A program made the translations under genes and the position numbers. Positions 1,942 to 15,095 of a DNA stretch of 51,575 bases are shown here, in pieces. The notes beneath the pieces were generated by a model. The model was given only the letters and a program-made list of their open reading frames with translations. It did no database searches and was not told where the DNA came from. Source of the stretch: Sporocytophaga sp. (GTDB taxonomy: Bacteria; Bacteroidota; Bacteroidia; Cytophagales; Cytophagaceae); NCBI RefSeq assembly GCF_017745095.1, contig NZ_JAGHZZ010000030.1, positions 1-51,575 of the forward strand, read 5' to 3'. How positions within the stretch are numbered: the first letter of the stretch is position 1; each line of letters starts with the position of its first letter.

Positions 1942-1988
1942 AAAGAATCATGAGAAGGCTTTGAAATTTAATATGGCCTTATTTATTG

Positions 1989-2271: not shown

Positions 2272-2354
2272 AAGCCTATTAGCCTATGATGCGCCAATAG
2301 ACGTATAGAGTATAAAATAATTAGTATTTTTATTATTACTATTTATATAGGCTT
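2272..2354 (+). promoter_or_regulatory. Leader sequence complementary to the start region of the CotH-type gene
   Basis: AAGCCTAT at 2272-2279, repeated as AGCCTAT at 2281-2287, is the exact complement of ATAGGCTT at 2347-2354, the eight bases directly before the ATG at 2355. The leader RNA could therefore pair with and mask the translation start. The two alternative upstream copies would allow two registers. No protein or ligand site is recognised. The rest of 2020-2271 is AT-rich and shows nothing else. Confidence 0.35.
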
Positions 2355-5300
2355 ATGAAACAAATGTTACTCTTTGCTGCTCTTCTGTTATTGTTCATTC
2401 CTGCTTATTCACAGGTGTTACTGGATGACAATGAGGGTAGTACATCTTTGTCTTTACAATGGTCATCCGGCTTTCTGGTGAGAAATGCTGTAAATCCTTT
2501 AAAGAATGGAAGCAACCAAAGTCCTTTTGTTGCAAAATATACACGTACGAATGCAGCTTATTGCGGATTTGCACTAAAGGCTTCAGCACCTTCCAAAGAC
2601 CTAGGTCCTTATGCGACATATGATGCATCTGCAAAAAGATTTAAGATGGACTTTTACAGCCAGTATCCTGGCACAAAAGTCCAGATTACTATACAAAATA
2701 GTGGAATGGCTGCCGCGGCTGATTTTCCTGTAGGTCGACATTCTGAATATTCAGCTACGTCAACAAAGACTAATGAATGGGAAACACTGGTTTTCAAGTA
2801 TGTCTGGACTCCTGATAAGTCTGTTCCCAATGATGCAGTAGATGAATTTATAATTTTCATACAACCAGGAGATGGAACTGCCTCCGGCAGAACATATTAT
2901 CTCGATAACTTTATGGGACCAGAATCCTTTATACCTGAGCTTTCAGAAATGTTATATGAAGATGCGGAGGCCGTTTCTCTCGTTAATTATAAAAGTACAA
3001 CAGGTGATTTTTCCAAAGGCGTAATTAATCCAGCGTCGAACTCTGTTAATTCAAGCGCTCAGTCCCTGAGATATGTAAGAAGTACTAAGACAGTAGATAC
3101 GGTTATAATGTCGCCTGCTGGCACGATCCACTCACTTAGGCCATTTCTAAATGGAAAGAAAAAAATGACTCTTCAGGTCTATAGTAGCAAAGCAGGTTCT
3201 AAAGTACAATTAAGTTTTCTGGATAAAGACAGTAGATCAGGCACTACTAAAGGTATTCATTCAGTGTTTGAAGCAACTACGAAAAAGGTTAGGGAGTGGG
3301 AAACCCTTTTGTTTGATTATATCCGAATGCCTGATGCGGGAGTGAAGGATACAGAGATAGATGAAATACATTTGAATATTGCCAATGGTTCTACAAAGGC
3401 TGATACTTTTTTTCTTGATAATTTTTACGGACCGGACCTCTTTGTTCCCCAAGGAACTGTAGTACTTCATCTGAACGAAGTGTCAGCTTCAAATTTTAAA
3501 ACAAAAACAGATGAAGATGGTGATGCCTCTGACTGGATTGAAATATATAATTCCGGTGATGGAAGTGCTAATCTTAAAGGATACCGATTGTCTGATGATA
3601 AGCAAAATCCTTCATTGTATAGGCTTCCGGATCTATTTATCTATCCTGGAGATCATATTATTCTATGGGCTTCAGATAAAGATACCGTTTTTCCTTCAGG
3701 TGAAATACATACCAATTTCAAGTTAAGCAATGAAGGCGAGCGCTTGTTGTTGTCCAGTCCTGAAGGTGATACAATTGACTTGTTGAATATTCCGGCATTG
3801 AGTCAGGATATTTCTTATGGAAGGATTACCGGATATTCTGATTCCCTGGGATATTTTTTAACTCCAACTCCCGGAAGTCCTAATATATCGAGTGCTTATG
3901 CAGGGTATGTGAAAACACTTCCTGTATTTTCTATGAAAGGAGGTTTTTATGAAAAACCATTTGATTTGAACCTAACTGCAGTTACTGGTATGGAGATCAG
4001 ATATACTTTGGATGGATCAGATCCTTCTACTGAATCTTCTTTGGTGACAGGGACGTTACCTATAACAAGCAATGCACATGATCCCAATTCACTATCTACA
4101 ATTCGTACTACATATATTAATTATCCACCTTTCTTGGCGCCATCAGACACTATTTTTAAAGCCACAACAGTAAAAGCAAGAGTGTTTAAGGAGGGACTGA
4201 TACCAGGTCCGGTTTTAACAAATACCTATTTTGTTGACGAGAAAGGAAGGAACAGATATTCTCTTCCTGTATGGTCTATTGTGACAGATAGTCTGAATTT
4301 ATTCGATTATGAAAAGGGAATTTATATACCAGGTAAACTTTACGATGATTGGCGTATTAATAACCCTACGGCAATAGTGGAAGGCAATACACCTTCCAAT
4401 TATACACAGAAAGGTGATGAGTGGGAAAAGCCTGTTAGCATTGAGTTCTTTGAACCGGGAAATTTTACAGGAATTCAATACAACGCTGGTATTAAAATTC
4501 ATGGCAACTATTCAAGAGCTAATCCTCAGAAATCTCTCAGGTTATATTTCAGAGACGGATATGGGGCAGATGTACTTAACTATCCAGTTTTCCCTGGACT
4601 TAAAGGAAAAACAACAGGGAAAAAGGTTGATGAATTCAAAAAGATATTACTCAGAAACAGTGGAGGAGATAACTTCTTTTCTTATTTCCTGGATGCACTT
4701 TCTCAAAGTCTTGTCGCTCACACTTCTGTTCTCACAAGTTCATATAGGCCCTCAGTTTTATTTCTGAATGGTGAGTATTGGGGTCTAATAAATATCAGGG
4801 AAAGGTATGATAAGGATTTTATAGTATCCCATTATGATGTAGCGGATGATGATATCGCGATTTTGTCTTTCAATGGAACAATAGAAGAAGGTTCTCAGGA
4901 AGATGCAAATGATTATCTGTCAATGGTGAATTATATTTCAACCAATGATATTACAGATCCTGTTGTTTGGGCATACGCAAGCCAAAAGATGGATATTACC
5001 AACTTCATTGAATATAATATTGCAGAGATTTACTTAAACAATCGTGACTGGCCTGGTAATAATGTATATTATTGGAAAAACAGAAAAGGCAATCCGGCTT
5101 CCTCTTCACCGGGACCAGATGGAAGATGGAGGTGGATATTGATGGATACTGATTTTGGTATGGGCTGGCCATTGGGAGATGTTTATCCTCCAACTTACAA
5201 TATGATTAAGCATGCTACAGCAGAAGGTAATACAGAATGGCCTAATCCTGACTGGGCAACCTTGCTATTCAGAACATTGTTAAAAAATAATACTTTCAGA

Positions 5301-6716
5301 AATGAATTTATTAACCGCTTTGCCGATCATCTGAATAGTTCATTTAAGACCTCAAGAGTGATTGCTAAAATAGATAGTATGAAAGCTGCACTCAATCCTG
5401 AAATGCAGGAACATTATAAAAGATGGCATCCAAATACTTCTTTAAGTTTTTGGGAGGGTAATGTGCAGCTGATGAGGAATTTTGCAAAAGAAAGACCAAT
5501 ATATCAAAGACAACACATAACTGATTTCTTTTCCCTTACAGGAGTGCAGCAAGTAACACTGGATGTAAAGGATAACACGGGAGGAAGTATTAAAATATCT
5601 TCAATAAAAATTGACAGGAATCTTCCAGGAGTAGAAGATGGGGTATATCCATGGACTGGTATATATTTTAAAGATGTACCATTAACCATCACCGCTATTC
5701 CGGATCGAGGATATAAGTTTGCGGGCTGGAACGGTAATCCTTCCTCTGACAGCGATACTACTTTAGTACTTGCTTCAGATACTAAATTGGTAGCGTATTT
5801 TGTGCCATTGGATGAAAATGATAAAATTCCGTTTGCTCACAATCTTGCCAAATCAGATTATGAAATGAAGTATTGGAGTGCCTCCTCAGAAGCGGGAAGC
5901 TACCCGGCTTCTATGATATTTATGCAAACAGATACTATAGACCCGAAGATAGATGTGGAAAGAAATATTCCATATACTTTAGCTTATAATCTGACTAAAA
6001 AAACCAGAATAGAAGGGCTGAACGATGATGGATTCGCTTTCATTAACACAGGTTCTATTTCAGATGAGCCTAATCCCGGACGTGATCTGGGGGCAGCTGT
6101 ACTTGCATTGAAAACAAAGGGATTAGAACAAGCGACGGTATCCTTTACTGCAGGAACAGTTTTACCTAATGATCGTTCATACGGAATCCGCCTTCAGTAC
6201 AGAATCGGAGACAATGGAGCATTTACTGATTTCATGAATAACGGAAATCTTGTGGACTATATAAGAACTGCAGAAGGAGGTAAGTATACCAGATTTGAAA
6301 ACATTCCGCTTTCGGAGGAATTAATGAATCAGGAATACATACAATTGCGTTGGGTTTATTATTATATATCCGGAAACTCAGGCCCAAGAGCAAAACTTCG
6401 TTTGGATGATATATCGGTTAGTGCTCTTCGTCCTTCAGCAGTTGCAGATGCTTCATCTGATCTTAACCAGGTCTCCATCTTTCCTAATCCGTCCAATGGA
6501 AGTTTTACATTTCGATTGTCAAATGAATTCAGGGGTATGATGAATATTGCCGCTTTAGATATAACAGGAAAAACAATTTGCTCAACAGAACTTAACAAAC
6601 AAAGCAAAGAAATATACTGGCATTCGGAATGTGACTTTACAGGTCCTGGTTTTTATTTTCTAAAATGGAGTACAGGAGAAGTTCAGGGATTTGAAAAAAT
6701 AATAGTGAATAAATAA
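2355..6716 (+). CDS. Secreted CotH-type multidomain protein with T9SS sorting domain
   Basis: This 1453-aa exported protein starts with a signal peptide (residues 1-19, ending AYS-Q). Two related beta-sandwich-like repeats (about 20-195 and 200-365) each end in a [YF]LDNF motif and look like carbohydrate-binding modules. A lamin-tail domain follows (about 370-510, with DWIEIYNSG), then a chitobiase-type C-terminal beta domain (about 520-620, YTLDGSDPS). A CotH kinase-like domain (about 640-1070) contains FIEYNIAEIYLNNRDWPGNN and RWILMDTDFG. An InlB-type beta repeat (about 1075-1150, GYKFAGWNGNP) comes next, and the C-terminal 85 residues form a type A T9SS sorting domain (FPNPSNGSF). CotH-family proteins are known as atypical protein kinases in spore coats; whether a secreted bacteroidete version phosphorylates anything is unknown. 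It is monocistronic and ends at a bidirectional terminator. Confidence 0.88.
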   Translation: MKQMLLFAALLLLFIPAYSQVLLDDNEGSTSLSLQWSSGFLVRNAVNPLKNGSNQSPFVAKYTRTNAAYCGFALKASAPSKDLGPYATYDASAKRFKMDFYSQYPGTKVQITIQNSGMAAAADFPVGRHSEYSATSTKTNEWETLVFKYVWTPDKSVPNDAVDEFIIFIQPGDGTASGRTYYLDNFMGPESFIPELSEMLYEDAEAVSLVNYKSTTGDFSKGVINPASNSVNSSAQSLRYVRSTKTVDTVIMSPAGTIHSLRPFLNGKKKMTLQVYSSKAGSKVQLSFLDKDSRSGTTKGIHSVFEATTKKVREWETLLFDYIRMPDAGVKDTEIDEIHLNIANGSTKADTFFLDNFYGPDLFVPQGTVVLHLNEVSASNFKTKTDEDGDASDWIEIYNSGDGSANLKGYRLSDDKQNPSLYRLPDLFIYPGDHIILWASDKDTVFPSGEIHTNFKLSNEGERLLLSSPEGDTIDLLNIPALSQDISYGRITGYSDSLGYFLTPTPGSPNISSAYAGYVKTLPVFSMKGGFYEKPFDLNLTAVTGMEIRYTLDGSDPSTESSLVTGTLPITSNAHDPNSLSTIRTTYINYPPFLAPSDTIFKATTVKARVFKEGLIPGPVLTNTYFVDEKGRNRYSLPVWSIVTDSLNLFDYEKGIYIPGKLYDDWRINNPTAIVEGNTPSNYTQKGDEWEKPVSIEFFEPGNFTGIQYNAGIKIHGNYSRANPQKSLRLYFRDGYGADVLNYPVFPGLKGKTTGKKVDEFKKILLRNSGGDNFFSYFLDALSQSLVAHTSVLTSSYRPSVLFLNGEYWGLINIRERYDKDFIVSHYDVADDDIAILSFNGTIEEGSQEDANDYLSMVNYISTNDITDPVVWAYASQKMDITNFIEYNIAEIYLNNRDWPGNNVYYWKNRKGNPASSSPGPDGRWRWILMDTDFGMGWPLGDVYPPTYNMIKHATAEGNTEWPNPDWATLLFRTLLKNNTFRNEFINRFADHLNSSFKTSRVIAKIDSMKAALNPEMQEHYKRWHPNTSLSFWEGNVQLMRNFAKERPIYQRQHITDFFSLTGVQQVTLDVKDNTGGSIKISSIKIDRNLPGVEDGVYPWTGIYFKDVPLTITAIPDRGYKFAGWNGNPSSDSDTTLVLASDTKLVAYFVPLDENDKIPFAHNLAKSDYEMKYWSASSEAGSYPASMIFMQTDTIDPKIDVERNIPYTLAYNLTKKTRIEGLNDDGFAFINTGSISDEPNPGRDLGAAVLALKTKGLEQATVSFTAGTVLPNDRSYGIRLQYRIGDNGAFTDFMNNGNLVDYIRTAEGGKYTRFENIPLSEELMNQEYIQLRWVYYYISGNSGPRAKLRLDDISVSALRPSAVADASSDLNQVSIFPNPSNGSFTFRLSNEFRGMMNIAALDITGKTICSTELNKQSKEIYWHSECDFTGPGFYFLKWSTGEVQGFEKIIVNK

Positions 6717-6738
6717 AAGGTATTAATGATTCACTAAC

Positions 6739-6774
6739 AAAAAAGACATCATGGAATTTCATGATGTCTTTTTT
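6739..6774. terminator. Bidirectional terminator between convergent T9SS genes
   Basis: Fifteen-base arms 6739-6753 and 6760-6774 (core AAGACATCATG) pair perfectly around a six-base loop. Because the arms themselves are A-rich on one side and T-rich on the other, a U-tract follows the hairpin in both directions. It can end transcripts of both flanking convergent genes. Confidence 0.92.
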
Positions 6775-6790
6775 TTGCAATGGGTATATA

Positions 6791-8227
6791 TTATTGTTTT
6801 ACAAATTTTGTAGCGAATGAACCTTTGGTGGTTTCTACCTTTATTTGATAAAGACCTGCATTTAATCCATCTACCAGAAGTATTTTTTCGGCAAATTCCA
6901 GATTGATGACTTCACCGGTAGTGCTTGTAGCAGTAGCTTTCACGATTTCTCCGGCAGCAGTAACAGATACATTTGTTGCTGAAGGGTTCGGATAAACAGA
7001 AAATGCGGATTCAGTTTCCATTTCAGCTTCTGCAGATCTTAAATTGTTTGAATTAGCCCATCCGTTCCAGAAAGAGTCTGTAAATACAGCTCCCGCATTA
7101 GGATTAAAAGAATAGTTTGAATTGACAGCACCTACAATGATTCTCTCATTGTGAATGTCTATAGCATTTCCCACAGTTACTTTGTCAAGTCTGCCTGTTG
7201 CAGAATTTGTAGCAGGAATGTAAATAGAGCCAATCAGATTAAATGGAGTTCCTTGCAGTTGATAATAGAATACTTTTTCATTGTTTGAAATGATCAGACC
7301 CTGTCCGCTGATAGCAACATTCAGACCAAATCTCATAGGACCAGTCAAAGTCTGGTGAAGCGTCCATGTATTTGTTCCTGATTTTTTGAATACCTGCACA
7401 ATCGGTTCGCCGTTTGAACCAGAGGTTGAAGCTACAGCATGGCTTGCTGTAATGTCTATCTGACTGTAACCATAACCATATGCATTTGAAAGCTGAGCAA
7501 CATTTGTCCAGGTACCATTGTTTAATTTGTAGATGTGAACTTTGGTTCCTCCAGTAACTATCAATTGATCACCTGAAAGTTTTACAACCTTACCAAAGTA
7601 GTCTGCATACTGAAGTCCTGTTACAGGAATCCAGCCTCTGCGCACCCACTGAAGGTAACCAGTTCTCTGAAACATACATACACCACCCGCTGAATTGTCT
7701 TTGCCAGGTGCTCCAACGGCAACCCAATCTCCGTCCGTTGCCACAGCAGCACCGAATTGTAGGTCTGCAACTACATCGTTTGCATCAGGCAAAAGCTGAT
7801 AGTTTAAGGTGGTATGGTATTCGCCGTTGTTTAGTTTGTTCGCAATGATTACAGCACCACAACTTACGCCACCAATAACATAAGAAGGTACACCTGCAGC
7901 TATACATTGCAGGCCTAAAGCTGTATTATTCTTTCTTCCTAATCCAATGCTGGAGCCATTTCCATAAGTATATGTTCTCACATATTGATTATTACTAAAT
8001 AAGCGAATCGTACCGTGGTATGTTCCTGCTCCTCCATTGTAGTAAGTGTTGTTTTCGAACTCAGACGATGCAAGAGTAAGATGGTCGTATACAGCTACAG
8101 CTGATCCAAAGTCATCGATTCTCTCTGGTCTTGGATATGTTAGTTCTGTTGCCGGTACTTGTGCTGATGCTGTTCCTACAGCAAACAGCATCATAATGCT
8201 GAAAATGTTTTTTTTAAGTTTGAACAT
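6791..8227 (-). CDS. Secreted FG-GAP/beta-propeller-like protein with T9SS sorting domain
   Basis: The 478-aa product has a signal peptide (about 1-22, ending TASA-Q). A body of repeated beta blades follows, of the kind DFGSAVAVYDHLTLASS, LQFGAAVATDGDWVAVGAPG and YFGKVVKLSGDQLIVTGG. This pattern (FG.AV......VGAP) is that of FG-GAP repeats, which fold as a beta-propeller. The last ~75 residues form a type A T9SS sorting domain with the YPNPSATNVSV motif. It is probably exported and attached to or released from the cell surface; its ligand is unknown. The next loci upstream are the tRNA array genes on the same strand, and no clear terminator separates them, so read-through into this gene is possible. 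Confidence 0.85.
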   Translation of the reverse strand: MFKLKKNIFSIMMLFAVGTASAQVPATELTYPRPERIDDFGSAVAVYDHLTLASSEFENNTYYNGGAGTYHGTIRLFSNNQYVRTYTYGNGSSIGLGRKNNTALGLQCIAAGVPSYVIGGVSCGAVIIANKLNNGEYHTTLNYQLLPDANDVVADLQFGAAVATDGDWVAVGAPGKDNSAGGVCMFQRTGYLQWVRRGWIPVTGLQYADYFGKVVKLSGDQLIVTGGTKVHIYKLNNGTWTNVAQLSNAYGYGYSQIDITASHAVASTSGSNGEPIVQVFKKSGTNTWTLHQTLTGPMRFGLNVAISGQGLIISNNEKVFYYQLQGTPFNLIGSIYIPATNSATGRLDKVTVGNAIDIHNERIIVGAVNSNYSFNPNAGAVFTDSFWNGWANSNNLRSAEAEMETESAFSVYPNPSATNVSVTAAGEIVKATATSTTGEVINLEFAEKILLVDGLNAGLYQIKVETTKGSFATKFVKQ

Positions 8228-8399
8228 AGATTGATAAATTTTTCGTTCAATTTATCTAGTTCAGTTCAATCGCTTGAATAGTAATTTATAAGGTGGGACT
8301 TTTGCTTTACAAATTCTGCTTATTAATTGATGAAGAAAAAAAGTAAAAAGTAAAAACACTTTAATCTTTAAGCCTTTTAACTTTCCACTTCAAGTCTTG

Positions 8400-8471
8400 G
8401 GTGATTTCGGGACTCGAACCCTGTTCTCTACATTCACAGTGCAGCATTTTACCTGTTAAACTAAAACCACC
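8400..8471 (-). tRNA. tRNA-His (GTG), distal copy
   Basis: Read on the minus strand, the anticodon loop is CTGTGAA, giving anticodon GTG. The anticodon stem is CTGCA/TGTAG with one G-T pair. The acceptor GTGGTTT pairs with AAATCAC, and a G at -1 faces C73, the hallmark of tRNA-His. The T-loop TTCGAGT is canonical, but only three G-C pairs of the T stem form, with an A-G opposition next to them, so the T arm is short or weak. No CCA is encoded. This copy belongs to the most decayed unit of the array, whose tRNA-Gln is deleted. Confidence 0.8.
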
Positions 8472-8477
8472 ATTTTG

Positions 8478-8506
8478 TTTTCCCTCATGGATTCGATGAA
8501 GGGAAA
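8478..8506 (-). pseudogene. Deleted tRNA-Gln remnant
   Basis: Only 29 bases remain of a 72-base tRNA-Gln that is intact at 8700-8771. The acceptor halves (TTTCCCT and AGGGAAA) and part of the T loop are kept. The D arm, anticodon arm and variable region, 43 bases in all, are missing. It cannot work as a tRNA. Its exact position between tRNA-Pro and tRNA-His shows it came from duplication of the intact trio followed by internal deletion. Confidence 0.9.
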
Positions 8507-8507
8507 G

Positions 8508-8583
8508 TCAGTAGGGCAGGATTCGAACCTGCGTGCTCCTCCTTCCAAGGGAGGCTAGATAATCCTGACTCCTATACCTACTG
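8508..8583 (-). tRNA. tRNA-Pro (TGG), distal copy
   Basis: The acceptor CAGTAGG/CCTACTG is fully paired, with C1-G72 and A73 as in bacterial tRNA-Pro. The anticodon stem is CCTCC/GGAGG around loop CTTGGAA (anticodon TGG), and the T arm GCAGG-TTCGAAT-CCTGC is perfect. It differs from the proximal copy (8773-8848) only at D-loop positions. No CCA is encoded. It lies one base before the deleted tRNA-Gln. Confidence 0.9.
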
Positions 8584-8587
8584 ATAT

Positions 8588-8614
8588 AAAAAATTAGCAT
8601 ACTTAGAGTACTAA
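8588..8614 (-). terminator. Weak hairpin plus U-tract between the two tRNA trios
   Basis: On the minus strand TTAG-TACT pairs with AGTA-CTAA around a three-base loop with a two-base bulge, and six T residues follow. It sits where the leader and terminator would be expected in this repeat unit, and the sequence after it (TTTTTTATATCAGTAGG) matches the end of terminator T1. It may be a worn-down terminator that partly limits transcription of the distal trio. Confidence 0.45.
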
Positions 8615-8622
8615 TATTCTTG

Positions 8623-8694
8623 GGTGATTTCGGGACTCGAACCCTGTTCTCTACATTCACAGTGTAGCATTTTACCTGTTAAACTAAAACCACC
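8623..8694 (-). tRNA. tRNA-His (GTG), proximal copy
   Basis: This is the same as the distal His copy, except that the anticodon stem is repaired to CTACA/TGTAG, fully Watson-Crick around CTGTGAA. G-1 and C73 identity elements are present. The short T stem (three G-C pairs, then an A-G opposition) is shared by both copies, so it is probably a fixed property of this tRNA rather than a recent mutation. It lies five bases after tRNA-Gln on the minus strand, so the trio must be processed from one transcript. Confidence 0.85.
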
Positions 8695-8699
8695 ATTTG

Positions 8700-8771
8700 T
8701 TTTCCCTCATGGATTCGAACCATAATACTCTCCTTCAAAGGGAGATGTCCTGCCTTCTAGACGAAGGGAAA
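8700..8771 (-). tRNA. tRNA-Gln (TTG)
   Basis: Acceptor TTTCCCT/AGGGAAA is perfect, with A73. The D arm is GTC/GAC. The anticodon stem TCTCC/GGAGA encloses CTTTGAA, giving anticodon TTG. The T arm is TATGG-TTCGAAT-CCATG with one G-T pair. No CCA is encoded. A single base separates it from tRNA-Pro upstream on the minus strand. It is the only intact Gln tRNA in the window. Confidence 0.93.
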
Positions 8772-8772
8772 G

Positions 8773-8848
8773 TCAGTAGGGCAGGATTCGAACCTGCGTG
8801 CTCCTCCTTCCAAGGGAGGCTAGATAAACCTGGCTCCTATACCTACTG
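8773..8848 (-). tRNA. tRNA-Pro (TGG), proximal copy
   Basis: Acceptor CAGTAGG/CCTACTG, D stem TAGG/TCTA, anticodon arm CCTCC-CTTGGAA-GGAGG (anticodon TGG) and T arm GCAGG/CCTGC all fold cleanly. A73 is the discriminator and CCA is not encoded. It is the first tRNA after leader ORF 1 and terminator T1. Its 5' end starts only about 13 bases after the hairpin, so transcription of the trio requires read-through of T1 unless a promoter hides in that gap. Confidence 0.93.
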
Positions 8849-8861
8849 ATATAAATAAAAA

Positions 8862-8887
8862 AGCCCCTAAGATTTCTCAAAGGAGCT
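8862..8887 (-). terminator. Terminator T1 (putative attenuator) before the tRNA trio
   Basis: On the minus strand AGCTCCT pairs with AGGGGCT around a 12-base loop, followed by a U-tract (TTTTTATTTAT). The one non-Watson-Crick position is U-G on this strand but C-A on the other, so the structure is selected for minus-strand RNA. The 5' arm can pair instead with AAGGGG in codons 19-20 of leader ORF 1. It is paralogous to T2 at 9092-9121; loop and arm lengths are the same and 11 of 12 loop bases match. Confidence 0.85.
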
Positions 8888-8913
8888 CTATGAACATTAT
8901 GGTACATTATAAA

Positions 8914-8985
8914 CTACATAGTATTCCCCTTGATGACTTTCGGCATCTGTTGCGGTTGATGGATATGTAATTGTATTGTTATCAT
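8914..8985 (-). CDS. Leader peptide 1, 23 codons, rich in Gln/His/Pro
   Basis: An ATG-to-TAG frame of 23 codons ends 27 bases before terminator T1. It contains Gln at 5, 10, 12 and 13, His at 7 and 9, and Pro at 11 and 15: eight codons for the three amino acids carried by the tRNAs immediately downstream. Thirteen of 23 residues match the paralogue at 9142-9213, including LHI at 6-8 and QQMP at 12-15, and several shared residues use different synonymous codons, which supports translation. GAUG (codons 13-14) can pair with CAUC (codons 17-18), and AAGGGG (codons 19-20) can pair with the 5' arm of T1. I infer a cis-acting leader peptide whose ribosome stalling controls read-through. No clear promoter lies directly upstream, so it may be transcribed from leader 2. 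A tiny secreted or modified peptide is a less likely alternative. Confidence 0.7.
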   Translation of the reverse strand: MITIQLHIHQPQQMPKVIKGNTM

Positions 8986-9091
8986 AATATTGAATGATAT
9001 CTTTTATACTAATTTAAAATTCTTGTATAGGAATTAAATGAGTTTCTCATTAAAGTAAATGATTACCCACTAAGGTACTGATATAAAACAA
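8986..9091 (-). pseudogene. Collapsed tRNA unit between the two leaders
   Basis: Directly after terminator T2 the minus strand reads ATATCAGTA, identical to the lead-in and first bases of tRNA-Pro in the other two units. The similarity then breaks off. Near the far end CAAGAAT followed by TTA matches the tail after tRNA-His at 8611-8622. The simplest reading is a third copy of the unit in which nearly the whole Pro-Gln-His trio was deleted. A small perfect hairpin with arms AATGAG/CTCATT occurs inside it. Confidence 0.45.
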
Positions 9092-9121
9092 AAAGCCCCT
9101 AAGATTTCTCCAAGGGGCTTT
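9092..9121 (-). terminator. Terminator T2 (putative attenuator) after leader peptide 2
   Basis: On the minus strand AAAGCCCCT and AGGGGCTTT form nine perfect pairs around a 12-base loop, followed by TTTTTGTTTT. The AGGGG within codons 19-20 of leader ORF 2 is the same sequence as the 3' arm and can compete for the 5' arm. The loop is nearly identical to that of T1 while the stem differs, as expected of a duplicated attenuator. Confidence 0.9.
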
Positions 9122-9141
9122 CTATATAATATATTTATAAA

Positions 9142-9213
9142 TTACATAACGATCCCCTGAATGCTTTGCGGCATTTGCTGTGTATGGGGGATATGTAATT
9201 TTATTGTTTTCAT
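9142..9213 (-). CDS. Leader peptide 2, 23 codons, rich in Gln/His/Pro
   Basis: This 23-codon ATG-to-TAA frame is paralogous to the one at 8914-8985. It again holds exactly two His (7, 10), two Pro (9, 15) and four Gln (12, 13, 16, 19) codons, although several are at different positions. Its RNA can form a nested hairpin: AUCCCC (nucleotides 22-27) pairs with GGGGAU (57-62), and AAUGC (39-43) pairs with GCAUU (50-54). This would sequester the GGGG that otherwise competes with T2. A ribosome paused at codons 7-11 would open the outer stem, the classic layout of a his- or trp-type attenuator. A promoter-like element lies directly upstream, so the mRNA may be nearly leaderless. Cellular function is inferred from this architecture. 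Confidence 0.7.
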   Translation of the reverse strand: MKTIKLHIPHTQQMPQSIQGIVM

Positions 9214-9217
9214 GTTA

Positions 9218-9248
9218 CAAATGTCGTTAGTTAAATTTTCTTCTGCAA
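9218..9248 (-). promoter_or_regulatory. Putative promoter of the leader/tRNA operon
   Basis: On the minus strand GACATTTG (9218-9225) matches seven of eight positions of the Bacteroidetes -7 element TAnnTTTG. A TTG (9246-9248) lies 20 bases upstream, at the usual -33 spacing. Transcription would start about at the ATG of leader peptide 2. Confidence 0.5.
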
Positions 9249-9597
9249 GAAATTGTTGTAAAATATTTTTAAGCAATTTAATTGTTATTGTTTTTTAATA
9301 GAAACTACAGGAATAATAAAGATTCATTTAGCAAATGTTTTCTGTTTTAAGGAAAATCTTTGTCAACTGACTTTTATGAATGAATTTGGAATATTAACTC
9401 TGTTATATGGTAAGATTTTGGGAAGGAGAAATTCTGGCCTATTGAGGAATTGACAACTCCAGTAGGTGGTAGAAATAAAAAATAATAATACACTACATAA
9501 TGTTTTCAGCTCTTTGATTATTTATTTGTTTTCTTGAAACAAGAATACGATATTCATATTTTTTAATATAATTTTTTAATGAAATATAAAACCGTAT
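9249..9597. other. AT-rich intergenic stretch with a diverged repeat
   Basis: Between the tRNA operon promoter and the lipoprotein gene there is no credible gene. Bases 9384-9399 are identical to 40-55 and similarity continues patchily for about 30 bases on the right, which suggests a relic of a dispersed repeat or gene. A promoter for the gene at 9598 must lie here but no exact TAnnTTTG was found. Confidence 0.4.
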
Positions 9598-10443
9598 ATG
9601 AGAAAAGGATTTTTAATTTACAGTTTTTTACTGATTGTTTTAATATCAGTTTTCGGAGGATGTAAAAAGGATAAGGATGTTGATACTATGCATCCCAATA
9701 ATGGTGTGTCAGAATCTATAAGTTTTTCGCCTGATACTACGGATATTCATATTCTTGAAGGGACTACTTATTTCTTAACGGTTAATTATTATGCATATAA
9801 AGGAATTAAGTCCATTGCAGTCTATAAGATAGAAGATGGAGCAACACATTTGTTTATAGGAAAAAATACTAATGGTTTTGATTCTGAAACAAATGAAAAA
9901 GAGGAGTATGCGTTTGTAGCACAATTGGAGGGCGATTCTGTTGTAACCTATAGGTTTGAAATGGAAGATAAAATGGGAAGAATTAGTTCGAAAATACTGA
10001 TTTTACACGTCTTTCAGGATGAGAATGATAAGAATCATTACCTTAAATTCAAAAATTTGGTTCAGAGTGTACGGTTTATGCCTCACACAGACTATGGCCA
10101 TTATAATCTTGCAGAAAGCAAATACGTTGATTCCGTTAATATTGAAGATGTGGACCTGTTAGATAATACGGGAACTGACCCTTGGATCAAAAAGTGGATA
10201 CCAGGGCCAGGAAGAGAATTAAGAAAGGTGGTAGAGAAAGATCTTGGACGTCTTTCTGTAGAAACTTTGGAAGCTCTCTACAAGAACATCTCACCCATCA
10301 ATGAATCGGATGTGTTAGAAGTAGGAGATAAGTATCTTTTAAGTTACAAAGGAAAGCATTATTTAATTGAAATTACATATGTTGGCGATAAAGGTTCTGA
10401 AAACTGGATGACGTTTGTTTACTTTAATTATTATAAATATTGA
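9598..10443 (+). CDS. Lipoprotein of unknown function
   Basis: The 281-aa product begins with a lipoprotein signal: charged MRKG, a hydrophobic run, then the lipobox-like VFGGC with the acylated Cys at residue 22, followed by KKDKD. Residues about 40-145 have the alternating pattern of one Ig-like beta domain (HILEGTTYFLTVNYYAYKGI and so on, ending in ILHVF). The remainder is mixed and unrecognised. It is probably anchored in the inner leaflet of the outer membrane or in the inner membrane; many Bacteroidetes surface lipoproteins have such an N-terminal Ig module. It is monocistronic, convergent with the gene at 10551, and separated from it by a 13-bp hairpin. No function is assigned. Confidence 0.85.
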   Translation: MRKGFLIYSFLLIVLISVFGGCKKDKDVDTMHPNNGVSESISFSPDTTDIHILEGTTYFLTVNYYAYKGIKSIAVYKIEDGATHLFIGKNTNGFDSETNEKEEYAFVAQLEGDSVVTYRFEMEDKMGRISSKILILHVFQDENDKNHYLKFKNLVQSVRFMPHTDYGHYNLAESKYVDSVNIEDVDLLDNTGTDPWIKKWIPGPGRELRKVVEKDLGRLSVETLEALYKNISPINESDVLEVGDKYLLSYKGKHYLIEITYVGDKGSENWMTFVYFNYYKY

Positions 10444-10503
10444 TTAATACCCCTTGTCCACTCAACTTATTATTTTAAAAGCTTAGAGAGTTCCTTGATA
10501 TAA

Positions 10504-10540
10504 AACCCTCAGGTATCCATATTAAGTATACCTGAGGGTT
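10504..10540. terminator. Bidirectional hairpin between convergent genes
   Basis: Arms AACCCTCAGGTAT (10504-10516) and ATACCTGAGGGTT (10528-10540) form 13 perfect pairs around an 11-base loop. There is no long T-run on either side, but the position between two convergent stops supports a terminator role. Confidence 0.75.
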
Positions 10541-10550
10541 GAATTGTTCA

Positions 10551-11438
10551 TTAGGAGTTATAGGCAAGAGTAAATTCATTGGCAAAATTTTCAAGCTTAG
10601 TTGGACTGAGAGATGGTTGGTGGTTATAAAGGTCTTCAAACATCTTGCCTGTTCTTACAGCAATTCCCATCTCTGTGAATGCATCGGCATGGCTTGCTGA
10701 TAGCCCGGCATTTAAGAGACCTTCTTTCTGCTGTTCATCTGTAAATTCTACCCATGAAAAATCTTTTCCAATTGCTTTACCAAGTACTTGGACAATCTCT
10801 TCTGTTGTTCTGAAATCACTCACGATATATCTAAATGAACTTCCATTAAAATTAAGATGAAGCAATTCATCTATTGCAGTAGCGGCAATATCATTGGTGT
10901 GTACAAGTGGCAGTTTTGCATCACTGTTGCCAAAATTTCCTCCTGCAATCCCCATATTTTTAATTAAGTCTATTTGATTAAACAGGTTATAGAAAAAATA
11001 GGATGGTCTGAGATGTTTTACATTTAAGGCAGGTATCTTATTCAGCATCTTTTCATAGGCAGCCAAAGAATCTACAGGTCCGCAGCCATTTCCTAAATGT
11101 GCTCCAATACTACTTAATGTAACAACATATGGTATTTTATTTACGCGAATAGATGCTGCATAATTGGTAGCTATTTTAAGTTGAGAACCTCTAAGATCAC
11201 TGGTATTCATCAATGGAGGGATCATGGTATATACCACATCAGCTTTTTTAAATGCATCTTTTACAAATTCCGCATCTTCCAGAGAGCCTGTCAGAGCTTT
11301 AGCACCAAGTGCTTCAATCTGTTTGATCTTATTGGCATCGCTGGTGATGATAGTTACATTTTTACCAGCTTTAATAAGATTCTCTGCTATTGGTTTGCTG
11401 ATATGTCCGATTGAACCTGTTATTACATAGTTTTTCAT
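10551..11438 (-). CDS. NmrA-family NAD(P)-binding oxidoreductase (QorB/YtfG-like)
   Basis: The 295-aa protein starts with a Rossmann motif, VITGSIGHISKPIAENL, at residues 4-20. It has the NmrA/atypical SDR pattern: no YxxxK active site, and a VVTLSSIGAHLG segment around residue 105. Members act as NAD(P)H:quinone oxidoreductases or as redox-sensing NAD(P) binders. The divergent neighbour at 11619 is an HxlR regulator, the same arrangement as qorB/ytfH in enterobacteria, where a quinone- or thiol-responsive regulator controls the reductase. This suggests detoxification of electrophilic quinones. The ATG at 11436-11438 directly precedes the first beta strand. Confidence 0.88.
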   Translation of the reverse strand: MKNYVITGSIGHISKPIAENLIKAGKNVTIITSDANKIKQIEALGAKALTGSLEDAEFVKDAFKKADVVYTMIPPLMNTSDLRGSQLKIATNYAASIRVNKIPYVVTLSSIGAHLGNGCGPVDSLAAYEKMLNKIPALNVKHLRPSYFFYNLFNQIDLIKNMGIAGGNFGNSDAKLPLVHTNDIAATAIDELLHLNFNGSSFRYIVSDFRTTEEIVQVLGKAIGKDFSWVEFTDEQQKEGLLNAGLSASHADAFTEMGIAVRTGKMFEDLYNHQPSLSPTKLENFANEFTLAYNS

Positions 11439-11510
11439 AGTAGTCAGTTTTTATAATTGTTGATAGTACAATAGTTAGTAAAGAAATTCTTGACACTTGA
11501 TCCGGATCTT

Positions 11511-11524
11511 TGTAAGTATTTACA
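11511..11524. promoter_or_regulatory. Candidate HxlR operator in the divergent promoter region
   Basis: TGTAA-GTAT-TTACA (11511-11524) is a perfect 5-bp dyad with a four-base spacer, and a related TTGTAAGTA recurs about 40 bases downstream. HxlR-family regulators bind short dyads of this size between divergent genes. TAATATTG at 11597-11604 resembles a -7 element for the regulator gene. Confidence 0.45.
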
Positions 11525-11618
11525 TTGCAATTTTAACTTTTTAGTCTTTATATTGTAAGTAGTTATATTAATCTGATATAGTCATAAAAATCATACTAAT
11601 ATTGTAAATCAATGTATT

Positions 11619-11942
11619 ATGGAAAGATGTGAAATGAGAAATGTTGAAAATTGTCCGGTTACGGCAACTTTAGGAGTAATAGGAGGGAAGTGGAAAATGC
11701 TGATTATTTATATGATCAGTAATGATATTAATCGGTTTGGGAAATTGAGTATGATGCTAAAGGATATCAGCAAACAAATGCTTACCACCCAATTGCGTGA
11801 ACTGGAGCAGGATGGTTTGATAGAAAGGGTGATTTACCCTGAAATTCCGCCGCGTGTTGAATATTTTTTGACACCTAAGGGAAAAGCCCTCGCCCCGGTA
11901 ATGGCTGCCTTAAAAGACTGGGGAAACGAATTTTTGTTATAA
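11619..11942 (+). CDS. HxlR-family winged-helix transcriptional regulator
   Basis: At 107 aa this has the standard HxlR length and signature: CPVTATLGVIGGKWK (residues 13-27), a central DISKQMLTTQLRELEQDGLI helix-turn-helix/wing segment, and PRVEYFLTPKGKAL. Cys13 is the conserved N-terminal cysteine that serves as a thiol or quinone sensor in YodB/QorR/HypR-type members. It is divergent from the NmrA-type oxidoreductase across a 180-base gap with a candidate operator, so it probably represses that gene and itself until the cysteine is modified. No other gene follows it closely. Confidence 0.93.
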   Translation: MERCEMRNVENCPVTATLGVIGGKWKMLIIYMISNDINRFGKLSMMLKDISKQMLTTQLRELEQDGLIERVIYPEIPPRVEYFLTPKGKALAPVMAALKDWGNEFLL

Positions 11943-12028
11943 AAAGTTTCCATTAATGAGGAAATCTAGATAATAAATATTATTTGATTTTTTTTGCTAA
12001 AATGCCTTCTCATAATCTATAAATTTCA

Positions 12029-12036
12029 TACCTTTG
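12029..12036 (+). promoter_or_regulatory. -7 promoter element of the structured RNA
   Basis: TACCTTTG is an exact match to TAnnTTTG and lies five bases before the predicted RNA start at about 12041-12042. No clear -33 element sits at the right distance. Confidence 0.6.
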
Positions 12037-12040
12037 AAGT

Positions 12041-12180
12041 GGCAAGCCCGTGCTGTTGACCATCGATGCTCACGGATATATAAAAAAATCGTTTATCTGC
12101 ACTTGAAAAAGTCACATAACATTTTTTCCAACATAGAAATATGAGCGCGTCAACAGTCTGATATGGGCTTGTCTTTTTTT
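12041..12180 (+). ncRNA. Structured ~140-nt RNA of unknown class
   Basis: The region has all parts of a free-standing small RNA gene: an exact -7 element, a first base that coincides with the base of the closing stem, and a seven-T terminator after it. P1 pairs 12041-12049 (GGCAAGCCC) with 12165-12173 (one G-U). P2 pairs 12053-12060 (CTGTTGAC) with 12149-12156 perfectly. P3 pairs GCTCA (12068-12072) with TGAGC (12142-12146). Inside are hairpins 12073-12099 (CGGATA/TATCTG) and 12101-12112 (ACTT-GAAA-AAGT with a GNRA loop). No frame inside is convincing. It is not SRP RNA (no GGAAGGAAGC-type motif), tmRNA or RNase P by size and motifs. A 6S-type RNA is possible but the branched interior argues against it. 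Confidence 0.7.
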
Positions 12181-12210
12181 ACATTTTCTAATAAAGACTT
12201 CTTCCTAAAT

Positions 12211-12287
12211 AAATAGCAACAGTTTGAGCAGGAGCAACAAGATGTTTCTCAGGAATTGTCTTGCTGTTGCCCAAACTATTGCTATTT
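12211..12287. repeat. Long imperfect hairpin, 32-bp arms
   Basis: Bases 12211-12242 and 12256-12287 pair at 24 Watson-Crick and two G-U positions of 32, with AAATAGCAA at the outer ends. Two C-A oppositions become G-U in minus-strand RNA. No T-run follows. It resembles a miniature palindromic element or an RNA processing hairpin. A separate 15-base palindrome (TTGATGA-A-TCATCAA, 12294-12308) lies next to it. An open frame across this palindrome was not accepted as a gene. The rest of 12309-12641 is AT-rich with nothing further seen. Confidence 0.65.
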
Positions 12288-12641
12288 ACTTAATTGATGA
12301 ATCATCAAGTAGCTTTCCTACACTTGTAGAATATTTCTACATTATTTATTTTTTGCCAAACTTTATTTTACATCCCTTCAATATTATTAATATGCTTATG
12401 TATGAACCTATTAGATGAATGTGCTCTTTTCTTGAATACTGTCTCGTTAAGGGGAAGGTATTATATTAAGAAATTTTAATCGAATTCTAATTTCAAACCC
12501 ACATCAACTCCCTATTTTTCGCTGTTATAATCTAAGTACTAGAATTCTATTTTCTGTATCGGTTTTCTGAAAGACTTAAAGGACTGAAAGGAAATAAAAA
12601 CAATAGTAGCATTCCATAAAAATCAAATATTTATAAAGTAA

Positions 12642-13079
12642 ATGGCTGCAAAATCTATTCTTTATATAGAGGATGATGAGTTAGATGTAATCTGTTTTGA
12701 AAGAGCATTGTTGAAATTTAATCTCCCCATAATTTTCTATACTGCTTATAATGGCATCGAGGCTCTTGAGTTGCTGGAAGGAAAAAATAAAATTTCGATT
12801 CCTGATATCATTGTGCTTGATCTTTCCATGCCCAAAATGAATGGTTTTGAATTTTTAAAGGAGCTGAGGAAGAACACTATTTATGATTCTGTTAGGATAT
12901 TTATTATGACTACTTCGAACGATGACAAAGATAGGATACAGGCAGAGTACTTTAATATTGACGGATATATTATCAAGCCTTTAAACTTCAATGAGAACAC
13001 TAAGAGGAACTCATCTATGGATAATTTCATGCAGTTTCAAATTAATAAAATGCTCGGAAAAGATTTTTCCACTTTATAA
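12642..13079 (+). CDS. Single-domain response regulator (CheY/Rcp1-like)
   Basis: The 145-aa protein is a stand-alone receiver domain. The acidic pocket is E10-D11-D12, the phospho-acceptor is Asp60 in VLDLSMPKMNG, the switch Thr is in MTTS (about 90), and the conserved Lys112 lies in YIIKP. There is no output domain. Receivers of this Rcp1-like type are common in Bacteroidetes and relay signals from hybrid or phytochrome-type kinases. It is convergent with the histidine kinase gene at 13082, with only two bases between the stops, but that kinase has its own OmpR-type partner, so the cognate kinase of this receiver is unknown. Confidence 0.93.
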   Translation: MAAKSILYIEDDELDVICFERALLKFNLPIIFYTAYNGIEALELLEGKNKISIPDIIVLDLSMPKMNGFEFLKELRKNTIYDSVRIFIMTTSNDDKDRIQAEYFNIDGYIIKPLNFNENTKRNSSMDNFMQFQINKMLGKDFSTL

Positions 13080-13081
13080 AA

Positions 13082-14425
13082 TTAAATAGGAAAAATAAGG
13101 GTCACAGAAGTACCTGTGCTGATTACAGAGTTAATTTTCAAAGTTCCACCGTGTAGTTTTATAATTTTATCAGTAAGAGATAGTCCTATTCCAAAGCCGT
13201 TTGCTGAAAGGTTTCTGCGGCTTCTGTAAAATGGTTTAAGGATTTTTGTGAGTTCATCTTTATCTATACCGGATCCTTCATCTCTTACAATAAAACATAT
13301 ATTGGCATATTCTTTAGCATCAACAATTAGTTTTACAGCCTTGTTAGAGTATTTAAATCCATTTTCAATTACATTCATCAGAGCTACTCTTATAAGGTCT
13401 TCATTGCCTGTAATTTCAATTTCACTGAGATCTTTATTGACTTGATTTTCTATTATGAAGGATCTTGAATATTTCCTTTTTAATACATCTTCTTCAAGTC
13501 TATCCAATAAGTATCTGAGATTTACTTTTTCAGAAACCAAACTTTGCTTATCCGCTTGAAGCAATTCCAATAGCTTATTAGACAATTCTGTAAGATTTAA
13601 CGATTCTTCAAGGATTGATTTTAATGTCTCTTTATAAGCTTCCGGAGAACGGTCTTTAAGTAATGATACTTCTATTTCACTTGTGATGGACGTAAGAGGA
13701 GTGCGCAATTCATGAGAGGCATGTGCTATAAATTTATTCTGCTGCTCAAAGGTATCTTCAATTCTGTCAAACATTTGATTAAAAGAATTGGCAAGCTGGG
13801 TGATCTCATCTTTTCCCTTACGCTCAGTTAATCTAAGTCCTGCATGACCTTCCTTAATATTATCTACTTCATGTATAATATCTGAAATAGGTGATAGGGC
13901 TCTTGAAGAAAAAAATCTTCCTGAAAAAAATATGACAATCAGTCCGAAAAGATTACCTGCTACCAATGCAATAGCAAGAAAGTTAATAGCTTCTTTTCCT
14001 TCTATATCAACGGCTGAGGCAGTTATCACATAATTTCCTTTATAATCTAGGCCTACAAATTGCCTTTCTGCTAGAACAAAGGAGTATTTTTTTTCATCTC
14101 TGATCTTTTGTAACTTTTCATCTGGAATTCTAAAATTGATTGTATCATCTTTATAGACAAGGCTATCATTTTTATCGTAGATTCTCACATATTCTTCATG
14201 AAGCGAAGTTAGATAATTGCGTCTTAGTTTTTTTAATAACTCGGCGTTTATCTCATCCACTTCAATAAGAATTTTAGCAGTATACAAAGCTTTTTCCCTG
14301 AGTCGCTTTCTGAAGTTAAATTCCCGGTATTGGCTGAAGGCATAATAGATGCAGACACTGAATAAAACAAGAATACAAAAGACAATTCCTGTAAACTGAA
14401 GTGTAAGCTTGTTTCTTATTTTCAT
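13082..14425 (-). CDS. Sensor histidine kinase of an OmpR-type system
   Basis: I place the start at the ATG 14423-14425, one base after the response regulator's TGA, giving 447 aa. The longer frame would overlap the upstream gene and add 11 poorly placed residues. Order of parts: TM1 (about 10-32), a periplasmic sensor region of about 110 residues, TM2 (about 148-169), HAMP (about 170-225), HisKA with phosphorylated His238 in ASHELRTPL, and HATPase with the N box (NVIENGFKYS), DEGSGID and GFGIGLSL. All catalytic residues are present. It is the third gene of the otsAB-regulator-kinase operon, so its stimulus may concern osmotic or desiccation stress; that link is inferred from context only. 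Confidence 0.93.
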   Translation of the reverse strand: MKIRNKLTLQFTGIVFCILVLFSVCIYYAFSQYREFNFRKRLREKALYTAKILIEVDEINAELLKKLRRNYLTSLHEEYVRIYDKNDSLVYKDDTINFRIPDEKLQKIRDEKKYSFVLAERQFVGLDYKGNYVITASAVDIEGKEAINFLAIALVAGNLFGLIVIFFSGRFFSSRALSPISDIIHEVDNIKEGHAGLRLTERKGKDEITQLANSFNQMFDRIEDTFEQQNKFIAHASHELRTPLTSITSEIEVSLLKDRSPEAYKETLKSILEESLNLTELSNKLLELLQADKQSLVSEKVNLRYLLDRLEEDVLKRKYSRSFIIENQVNKDLSEIEITGNEDLIRVALMNVIENGFKYSNKAVKLIVDAKEYANICFIVRDEGSGIDKDELTKILKPFYRSRRNLSANGFGIGLSLTDKIIKLHGGTLKINSVISTGTSVTLIFPI

Positions 14426-14426
14426 G

Positions 14427-15095
14427 TCAATCTTCCTTAAGAATATAGCCCAGGCCAATGAGTGTGTGTATTAACTTGGGAGTGTAGTTCCTGTCTACTT
14501 TCTTACGAAGATAATTAATATAAACATCAATAATGTTAGTGCCCGTGTCAAAGTTGAGATCCCATACGTTTTCTGCTATGTCTGCTCTGGATAAAACCTT
14601 CCCTTTGTTCTTCAACAGATATTCTAGTAATCCGTATTCTTTCGCAGTAAGGTCAATTCTTTTTCCGCCTCTGATGACGGACTTGGTATCAAGATCTAGT
14701 TCAAGATTTGCTATTCTGTATACTCTGTCGTTATGAACCGGTGGTCTTCTGGATAAGGCTCTGACTCTGGCAAGCAGCTCTCGGAATTGAAAGGGTTTAA
14801 GTAGATAATCATCAGCACCTGCGTCAAGACCGTTTACCTTATCATCAATAGTACCAAGGGCGGTAAGCATCAAAATAGGCGTAGATTTTTGCGCTCTTAT
14901 TTTAGTACAGACATCAATACCATTAATATCAGGTAGATTTATATCCAGTATAATTAATTGATATTCGTGTGATATAGCCAGGTCCATGCCTTCTTTACCT
15001 GTCAATGCGAGATCTGCTGTATAATTGCTGTCTTCCAGACCTCTTTTAAGTACAGAACCTACCTTTTTCTCGTCTTCGATGATAAGGATTTTCAT
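14427..15095 (-). CDS. OmpR/PhoB-family response regulator
   Basis: The 222-aa protein has a receiver domain (E7-D8, Asp51 in ILDINLP, Thr78, Lys100) and a C-terminal winged helix (residues about 125-220, ending IHTLIGLGYILKED) typical of OmpR/PhoB. Its ATG overlaps the stop of otsAB (TAATG, one shared base) and the kinase ATG follows its stop by one base, so all three genes are translationally coupled. It probably controls this operon and other envelope or stress genes; no binding site was recognised. CusR-like regulators share this architecture, so metal sensing is also possible. Confidence 0.94.
   Translation of the reverse strand: MKILIIEDEKKVGSVLKRGLEDSNYTADLALTGKEGMDLAISHEYQLIILDINLPDINGIDVCTKIRAQKSTPILMLTALGTIDDKVNGLDAGADDYLLKPFQFRELLARVRALSRRPPVHNDRVYRIANLELDLDTKSVIRGGKRIDLTAKEYGLLEYLLKNKGKVLSRADIAENVWDLNFDTGTNIIDVYINYLRKKVDRNYTPKLIHTLIGLGYILKED

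Follow-up and report, generated by a model that had tools for sequence, protein, structure and literature searches.

How might a set of tRNA genes be switched on when the very tRNAs that it encodes run short? This question is raised by a locus in a 51,575-nucleotide (nt) stretch of DNA from Sporocytophaga sp. (Bacteroidota, Cytophagales; contig NZ_JAGHZZ010000030.1 of RefSeq assembly GCF_017745095.1), hereafter the window, whose minus strand carries two 23-codon open reading frames (ORFs), each followed by an intrinsic terminator, ahead of genes for tRNA-Pro, tRNA-Gln and tRNA-His. This layout, described in an initial annotation made from the sequence alone, was confirmed, and the interpretation given there, in which a ribosome stalled in the leader frees an antiterminator, appears to be supported by the matching of leaders to tRNAs. 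With a probability of roughly 0.78, we regard the locus as a case of ribosome-mediated attenuation that responds to scarcity of certain charged tRNAs by releasing a reserve set of tRNAs; its best explanation is a phage-type tRNA operon, present as a chromosomal copy, with two attenuators in series. Direct reading of the sequence or computation yielded the layout of the parts, the codons used, their conservation, folds that exclude each other, the placing of the control codons and codon-matched phage relatives, all described below. What is added to the initial annotation is the recognition of an extra, phage-type set beside the ordinary tRNAs of the cell, the recurrence of such units in phages, and a better fit to tRNA loss than to amino-acid starvation.

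Leader Codons and Their Conservation

Each leader holds exactly two His, two Pro and four Gln codons, as had been counted originally. The chance of finding at least eight His, Pro or Gln in 22 residues is 0.0015 per leader, and this number is reached by 5 of 539 ATG ORFs of 18-30 amino acids (aa) in a sample of the same genome with some overlapping loci, the two leaders of the window being among these five. Codon content alone makes the leaders only moderately unusual; the case rests on conservation, folding and comparison with phages rather than on codon content.

Both leader-terminator units are present in three of the four Sporocytophaga genomes searched, namely that of the window (G000), G001 and G003, the operon copy of G001 being divided between two contig ends. 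All eight control codons of leader 1 are kept in the three genomes (own peptide in Table 1; MTTIKLHIPHTQQVPQSIQGIIM in G001, MTTIKLHIPHTQQMPQSTQGIIM in G003), and the single control-codon change found among them is Gln13 to Pro in leader 2 of G003 (MATIQFHIHQPQPMPKDIRGNTM; MTTIQLHIHQPQQMPEDIKGNTM in G001). Otherwise the His, Pro and Gln codons stay constant while the remaining leader residues vary, and the codon differences between versions are not mostly synonymous, which is expected if the codons, and not a working peptide, are under conservation. The G003 operon (L124 2921-3783) encodes five tRNA-Pro with repeated spacers (anticodon loop TTTGGAA, T32), one tRNA-His and no tRNA-Gln. The three genomes resemble each other over approximately 60 nt ahead of leader 1 and differ farther upstream; within the 5-7.5 kb compared at the G001 and G003 operons, the window shares no ORF of at least 70 aa save for one distant match (39%). 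The unlike neighbours and the alike promoter block suggest that promoter, leaders, terminators and tRNAs move as one unit.

A covariance model built from the six units (units 1 and 2 of G000, G001 and G003) gave 150-165 bits only in these three genomes when 390 genomes of the order were searched. Among weaker matches (at most 44 bits), the 27 loci examined (L069-L095) were set aside as mostly ordinary terminators by eye (AAAGCC..GAGAAATC..GGCTTTTT); terminators of this shape are therefore common in the order. A search of the own genome for a second copy of the leader region returned weak short matches only, and an origin of the leaders from the his operon was rejected, no ATG ORF of 8-40 aa with at least three His being found at hisG in the four Sporocytophaga genomes.

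Two side observations concern similar elements in the order. Near position 1500 of L091 (G014), a His-rich leader (MRTNQLHHHHSHTCTQASVE) with a terminator is probably a his-type attenuator. Near position 1500 of L050, L051 and L052 (G001 C5, G000 C62 and G003 C10), a conserved AT-rich stretch, which adjoins an apparent peptidyl-tRNA hydrolase gene (identified by eye) and may be a small RNA, is followed by a conserved terminator shaped like those of the window.

Alternative Folding of the Leader Transcripts

The G-rich segment noted originally (segment 2) lies at codons 18-21 and pairs, in all six units, either with the 5' arm of the terminator (2:3, the antiterminator) or back with the leader (1:2). 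Over the six units the energies range from -12.9 to -17.0 kcal/mol for the antiterminator and from -14.1 to -18.4 kcal/mol for the terminator, and the fold z-score of leader plus terminator is -4.9 for unit 1 and -2.5 for unit 2. Stalling was modeled by masking the ribosome codon by codon on a transcript ended in the terminator loop. With a mask reaching 9 nt past the A-site codon, 2:3 forms (0.96-1.0) up to codon 15, partly at codon 16 and not at all from codon 17; the partial codon becomes 17, 15 and 14 with 6, 12 and 15 nt covered, respectively. With the 9-nt setting, the antiterminating side takes in all eight control codons of unit 2 and six of eight in unit 1, with a seventh at the edge (14 of 16 in total). 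A separate calculation based on the arms placed the switch edges at codon 15-20.

The his/trp attenuator model (PMC1183508) combines a short leader ORF with regulatory codons and a terminator set against an antiterminator. By sequence and folding, the locus has a leader ORF with regulatory codons and an intrinsic terminator between leader and genes. An antiterminator that is released by stalling and excludes the terminator was obtained by folding in six of six truncated transcripts, although not at full-length equilibrium, and the controlled genes are related to the sensed amino acids, the leader residues matching the downstream tRNAs.

An Extra, Phage-Type tRNA Set

The operon is not the main supply of tRNA-His, tRNA-Gln and tRNA-Pro in this cell. 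Elsewhere the genome encodes an ordinary tRNA-His (68.0 bits), a tRNA-Gln (62.9) and two tRNA-Pro (67.5), and the five tRNAs of the window score 40-55 bits. The ordinary anticodon loops for His, Gln and Pro are TTGTGGT, TTTTGGT and TTTGGGA (G37), and those of the window (Table 1) have C32, A37 and A38. No terminator lies within 95 nt upstream of the ordinary tRNA-His, tRNA-Gln and tRNA-Pro operons, the nearest being at 365 nt for tRNA-Gln. A terminator was found close upstream of 3 of the 26 tRNA operons examined in this genome and a matching leader only at that of the window; the other two candidates, tRNA-Arg(ccg) and Tyr-Gly-Thr, were dismissed, their ORFs lacking cognate residues.

Across the order (390 genomes), four genomes encode a tRNA-Pro with the window-type loop, and three of these are Sporocytophaga. 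The same loop occurs in at least 120 stretches of IMG/VR, and 78 of 80 loci examined were called tRNA-Pro by ARAGORN. When the tRNA DNA was used as a query (E <=0.01), 44 records of named phages matched in part (26 Pseudomonas, 7 Cellulophaga, 4 Bacteroides, and others), and the operon itself was the sole match in its own genome. By sequence, both the bodies and the anticodon loops of these tRNAs are closer to phage tRNAs than to those of the cell. Elsewhere in G000, two tandem identical tRNA-Cys(gca) genes with low scores were noted at L120 586-796 (C33).

Related Units in Phages

Five viral stretches carry the D-arm pattern of the tRNA-Pro, and one of them, L243, agrees with the window at 23 of the 24 letters of this pattern and has a similar tRNA-His. 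Its array of Pro, Glu, Gln, His, Leu(tag) and Arg(acg) stands behind a terminator and the leader MKTIFLHTQRLQEPEKHSGGIGV, in which Leu (CTA/CTT), Arg (CGC), Glu, Gln, His and Pro codons occur, so that it looks like the window leader plus codons for its three additional tRNAs.

Cellulophaga phage phi4:1 (NC_021788.1 83203-91263) follows the same plan, with three tRNA blocks each behind a leader and a terminator. The first block (Pro, Glu, Gln, His, Leu, Leu, Arg) follows MKIQRLHLQELEQPIISGGTGV, the second (Ala, Lys, Ile, Gly, Met, Asp, Thr, Val, Arg, Met) follows VQLTKTGITVIDKTKGARAYLGDTVIG, for which a GTG start was assumed, and the third (Tyr, Ser, Asn, Trp, Phe and an annotated pseudo-tRNA) follows MKTNYCTYNNSNWSFSYDTGS...; the pseudo-tRNA has a GCA anticodon and is read here as a probable tRNA-Cys. 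All non-Met amino acids of each block occur in its own leader. Matches to blocks 1, 2 and 3 number 11, 10 and 1 of 21 for leader 1, 4, 22 and 1 of 26 for leader 2, and 2, 13 and 16 of 31 for leader 3. The raw 11 vs 10 of leader 1 is weak and becomes 4.2 vs 0.6 above expectation, and its block-1 matches fall entirely ahead of the switch point (11 of 13 residues, against 0 of 8 beyond it). By eye this leader, which is identical in phi17:2, resembles those of the window, but its block is not Pro-Gln-His, and Glu, Leu and Arg codons are added accordingly. Similar leaders with mismatched codons, the observation that the initial annotation had named as fatal to its reading, were not seen in L243 or phi4:1, where the extra Glu, Leu and Arg codons accompany tRNA-Glu, tRNA-Leu and tRNA-Arg.

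Other viral leaders precede quite different arrays, such as Arg(tct), Gln, Ile(tat) and Lys behind MKMIRKQIRKQIQGIRKP.., with AGA and mostly ATA codons; Gln, Phe, Asp, His and Cys behind MNAININFQDHFDFCDHFDDQQ..; Pro, Asn, Gln, His, Trp and Thr behind MIFNNPFHQQPNFWNPFQG..; and Pro, His and Gln behind MKNLVNIQPQPQQHPQGC. An ATTTG-like box lies shortly ahead of the ATG in several phage leaders, as it does in the window. Searched against named phages, the leader region of the window matched in pieces of at most 10% of the query among the matches listed, and three phage leader regions had no match.

Some further observations were made in passing. The phi4:1 product gp075 (L724 4787-4906), annotated as a hypothetical protein, contains leader 2 and is probably a misannotated attenuator leader. 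The minus strand of L746 belongs to a phage with three leaders, MRTINKHKHFSKSSKWFSNK.. (Lys, His, Phe, Trp), MRTILNILVSSSRSSS.. (Arg, Ser) and MRTINLNMINVNNTLN.. (Asn). In L316 (~6027-6323), the array behind the leader MMKQYSYSSLYLPDYSG closes with a gene called as tRNA-Pyl(cta), which may be a suppressor, and leaders of the type M(K/R)(N/K)LLDIL..DED stand ahead of tRNA-Asp clusters in L427, L442 and L443.

Leader-tRNA Matching Across Viral Sequences

The main viral sample comprised at least 582 loci from five pattern scans, in which ARAGORN called at least 5326 tRNAs in at least 1453 clusters with at least 150 nt upstream (at least 1361 non-redundant). A terminator lies close before the first tRNA in 106 of these at least 1361 clusters, 91 of which also have an ORF. 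The leader was taken as the longest ATG ORF and picked blind to its amino acids, whereby the likely leader of L196 was missed. In the 91 clusters, which include the tRNA-Pro loci that gave the first matches and are to that extent dependent on the discovery, the excess of leader-tRNA matches was 129.3 vs 0.2 (standard deviation (sd) 20.5) with permuted tRNA sets (z 6.3; 0 of 2000). The signal held among leaders without common 6-mers (n=85, z 5.85), and control clusters without a terminator (400 of 848) gave z 1.53 (52 of 1000). A second sample from two more scans (218 loci, 387 clusters, 371 new) provided 25 clusters with a terminator and 16 with an ORF, and the three leaders of L746, which belong to it, each fit their own block. 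Pooling of both samples gave z 6.56 (n=107), with z 7.45 for AT-rich 5' regions (n=64), and the signal thus lies in AT-rich phages, perhaps those of Bacteroidota.

Comparisons within loci point the same way. In loci with several units, 23 of 25 leaders (22 from the survey and the three of phi4:1, called by hand) fit the tRNAs of their own block more closely than those of the sister blocks on average (p 2e-5), and in the 61 strong leaders cognate residues make up 457 of 1433 before the computed switch point and 58 of 303 after it (p 6e-6). In AT-rich leaders and phi4:1, a subset chosen post hoc, the family of the Arg codons agrees with that of the anticodon (11:1 vs 3:11, p 0.0005), and Ile codons follow the isoacceptor weakly (p 0.047).

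Layout of the Locus

The features of the locus are collected in Table 1. Its TTG and ACATTTG boxes we take to be a promoter of the Bacteroidota type; only 4 nt separate the end of the ACATTTG box from the ATG of leader 1, whose mRNA may, given this spacing, be leaderless. The second terminator does stand close to tRNA-Pro, as had been stated, with a measured gap from the stem end of 15 nt in place of about 13. Terminator-like sites number 5 in 2.1 kb on both strands, vs 1.1 (sd 1.3) in shuffled sequences. A second, partly deleted Pro-Gln-His copy, absent from the initial annotation, lies downstream of the first set. No phage or prophage context was detected in the nine ORFs within 1066-17305 with the Pfam library (no phage library, so that a small remnant may have been missed); eight of these are ordinary (SDR, CotH, FG-GAP/T9SS, NmrA, two-component, trehalose) and one is without a match.

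Table 1. Positions in the window of the putative promoter, attenuator units and tRNA genes.
Feature	Position	Strand	Details
Putative promoter block	9214..9269	-	TTG -33-like 9248-9246; ACATTTG -7-like 9224-9218
Leader ORF 1, MKTIKLHIPHTQQMPQSIQGIVM	9142..9213	-	Control codons His 7,10; Pro 9,15; Gln 12,13,16,19
Segment 2 of unit 1, UCAGGGGAU, codons 18-21	9152..9160	-	Partner: segment 1 or terminator 5' arm
Terminator 1 (segments 3:4), GCCCCUUGGAGAAAUCUUAGGGGC + U run	9090..9124	-	-18.4 kcal/mol; hairpin with T-run 9116-9096
Leader ORF 2, MITIQLHIHQPQQMPKVIKGNTM	8914..8985	-	Control codons Gln 5,10,12,13; His 7,9; Pro 11,15
Segment 2 of unit 2, CAAGGGGA, codons 18-21	8925..8932	-	From folding
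Terminator 2	8857..8889	-	-14.1 kcal/mol; hairpin with T-run 8883-8864
tRNA-Pro(TGG)	8772..8848	-	Anticodon loop CTTGGAA (A37)
tRNA-Gln(TTG)	8699..8771	-	Anticodon loop CTTTGAA
tRNA-His(GTG)	8622..8694	-	Anticodon loop CTGTGAA
Second tRNA-Pro(TGG)	8507..8583	-	Downstream repeat of set
Second tRNA-Gln, remnant with internal deletion	8477..8506	-	Downstream repeat of set
Second tRNA-His(GTG)	8399..8471	-	Downstream repeat of set

Proposed Mechanism and Alternatives

Transcription would start just ahead of leader 1. A ribosome that is not delayed at the His, Gln and Pro codons would move on and cover segment 2, the terminator would form and no tRNA would be made; a ribosome waiting at one of these codons would leave segment 2 free to pair with the 5' arm of the terminator, and the polymerase would continue. 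After read-through of terminator 1, leader 2 would repeat the same test before tRNA-Pro, tRNA-Gln and tRNA-His are reached. We infer translation, stalling and read-through from the arrangement of these parts. Back-up tRNAs with altered anticodon loops would thereby be made when ordinary tRNA-His, tRNA-Gln or tRNA-Pro is lost or blocked, for example when an anticodon nuclease cuts it in the course of a phage infection or an attack by toxins. Another possible trigger is loss of the m1G37 modification, which the A37 tRNAs of the window could not carry. The signal is probably a shortage of tRNA rather than of amino acid, because more tRNA gains little for a cell short of an amino acid, because the altered anticodon loops are like those of phage tRNAs thought to evade anticodon nucleases, and because Arg codons tend to follow the isoacceptor.

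Several results weigh against tRNA-sensing attenuation. Neither leaders nor operon were found in the Sporocytophaga genome G002, no such terminator or leader precedes the array in the other four relatives of the tRNA-Pro D-arm (L719-L722), and the tRNA arrays of crAss001 contain no such units. Compared with synonymously recoded leaders, the 2:3 pairing of the two units of the window is unremarkable (0.07 and 0.13), whereas that of the other four units is better than chance (0.0005-0.04), and with a 15-nt footprint the edge drops to codon 14 and Pro15 is lost. Because the terminator mostly prevails in the full-length transcript at equilibrium, switching has to be a kinetic process governed by timing, like that of known attenuators. 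When no ribosome is present, 2:3 is the main fold of the truncated transcript in five of six units, and shut-off in the absence of translation is therefore not predicted. In the survey, an excess of at least two residues over expectation is seen in only 28 of the 91 leaders (21 of the 61 strong ones), and many of the blindly called ORFs may thus be no leaders. The matching of leader codons to downstream tRNAs elsewhere, clear in the main sample, did not reach significance in the second (n=16, z 1.25, 561 of 5000 permutations as good), and GC-rich leaders as a group gave no match signal (n=43, for example L139; z 0.63). Over all 85 leaders the Arg comparison is 18:13 vs 5:12 (p 0.07), and the codons used for Leu and Ser show no agreement with the isoacceptor in AT-rich leaders and phi4:1.

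The lack of an isoacceptor preference for Leu and Ser would also suit a plain amino-acid sensor for His, Gln and Pro starvation, comparable to the his/trp leaders, with the extra tRNA as a side effect or scavenging aid. Its mechanics would be those of biosynthetic attenuators, and a His-rich leader with a terminator does occur in the same order (L091, G014). We nevertheless consider such a sensor unlikely, as extra tRNA would be no remedy for a missing amino acid, some phage leaders would have to report on six to eight amino acids at once, and Arg codons follow the isoacceptor in AT-rich leaders.

It is also doubtful that the operon is a phage relic, which worked in its donor and is now functionless and decaying in the Sporocytophaga chromosome. 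Leaders, terminators and nearly all control codons have been kept in three genomes while other residues vary, and tRNA-Pro has been amplified in G003, all of which speaks for continued function, even if the phage-type tRNAs, the truncated tRNA-Gln copy, the differing neighborhoods and the genome in four where the operon was not found are what a relic would leave. A leader that senses no tRNAs and serves to keep transcription and translation coupled, or whose peptide acts in trans as peTrpL reportedly does, is very improbable, since it predicts no codon match to downstream tRNAs across unrelated leaders. Chance placement of short AT-rich ORFs with His, Pro and Gln codons ahead of ordinary read-through terminators could appeal to the 3 of 537 remaining short ORFs in the sample of the same genome that reach eight such residues, and to the lack of a significant match in the small second viral sample. 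It is scarcely credible, given that two units recur in three genomes and fold alternatively and that leaders match tRNAs in the main viral sample.

Relation to Known Systems

Sensing of tRNA shortage by attenuation combines traits of several systems. The locus is like the his/trp attenuators in its leader ORF, competing hairpins and control codons upstream of the switch point; however, it controls tRNA genes, senses three amino acids that are those of the tRNAs themselves and has two units in series, and phage leaders span up to eight amino acids. T-box riboswitches likewise sense tRNA charging and act on a terminator, but bind the tRNA directly, and no T-box was matched in 7800-9900 by Rfam (E <=1). 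How transcription of the T4 tRNA operon is controlled was reportedly the subject of a paper of 1980. Phage tRNAs with changed anticodon loops are thought to evade anticodon nucleases (PMC10264068), and phage tRNA arrays with altered loops or extra copies replace tRNAs depleted by host defense (PMC10264068, PMC11555353). The window resembles these arrays in its altered-loop replacement tRNAs; the passages of these two papers used here do not describe control by a leader peptide, while the array of the window itself seems to sense depletion. The initial annotation knew of no described case, and we found no account of leader-peptide attenuation of tRNA genes in the open-access literature, which omits most subscription papers and so provides no proof. 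Within that literature, the one paper to name both "phage tRNA" and "leader peptide" concerns Escherichia coli small RNAs, and "tRNA gene" and "phage" occur nowhere in the main text of Naville and Gautheret (2010; PMC2965389).

Significance

On balance we lean toward a wider picture in which Bacteroidota phages, probably, and bacteria with adopted tRNA genes carry self-sensing arrays, each leader sampling the codons of its own block. Destruction of the matching host tRNAs by any nuclease would then call up resistant replacements block by block, with no need for a protein regulator. If this is true, the regulatory loop would be closed on tRNA supply itself, the leader would be a written record of the tRNAs that a phage expects to lose, and leaders could be read to predict which tRNAs host defense attacks.

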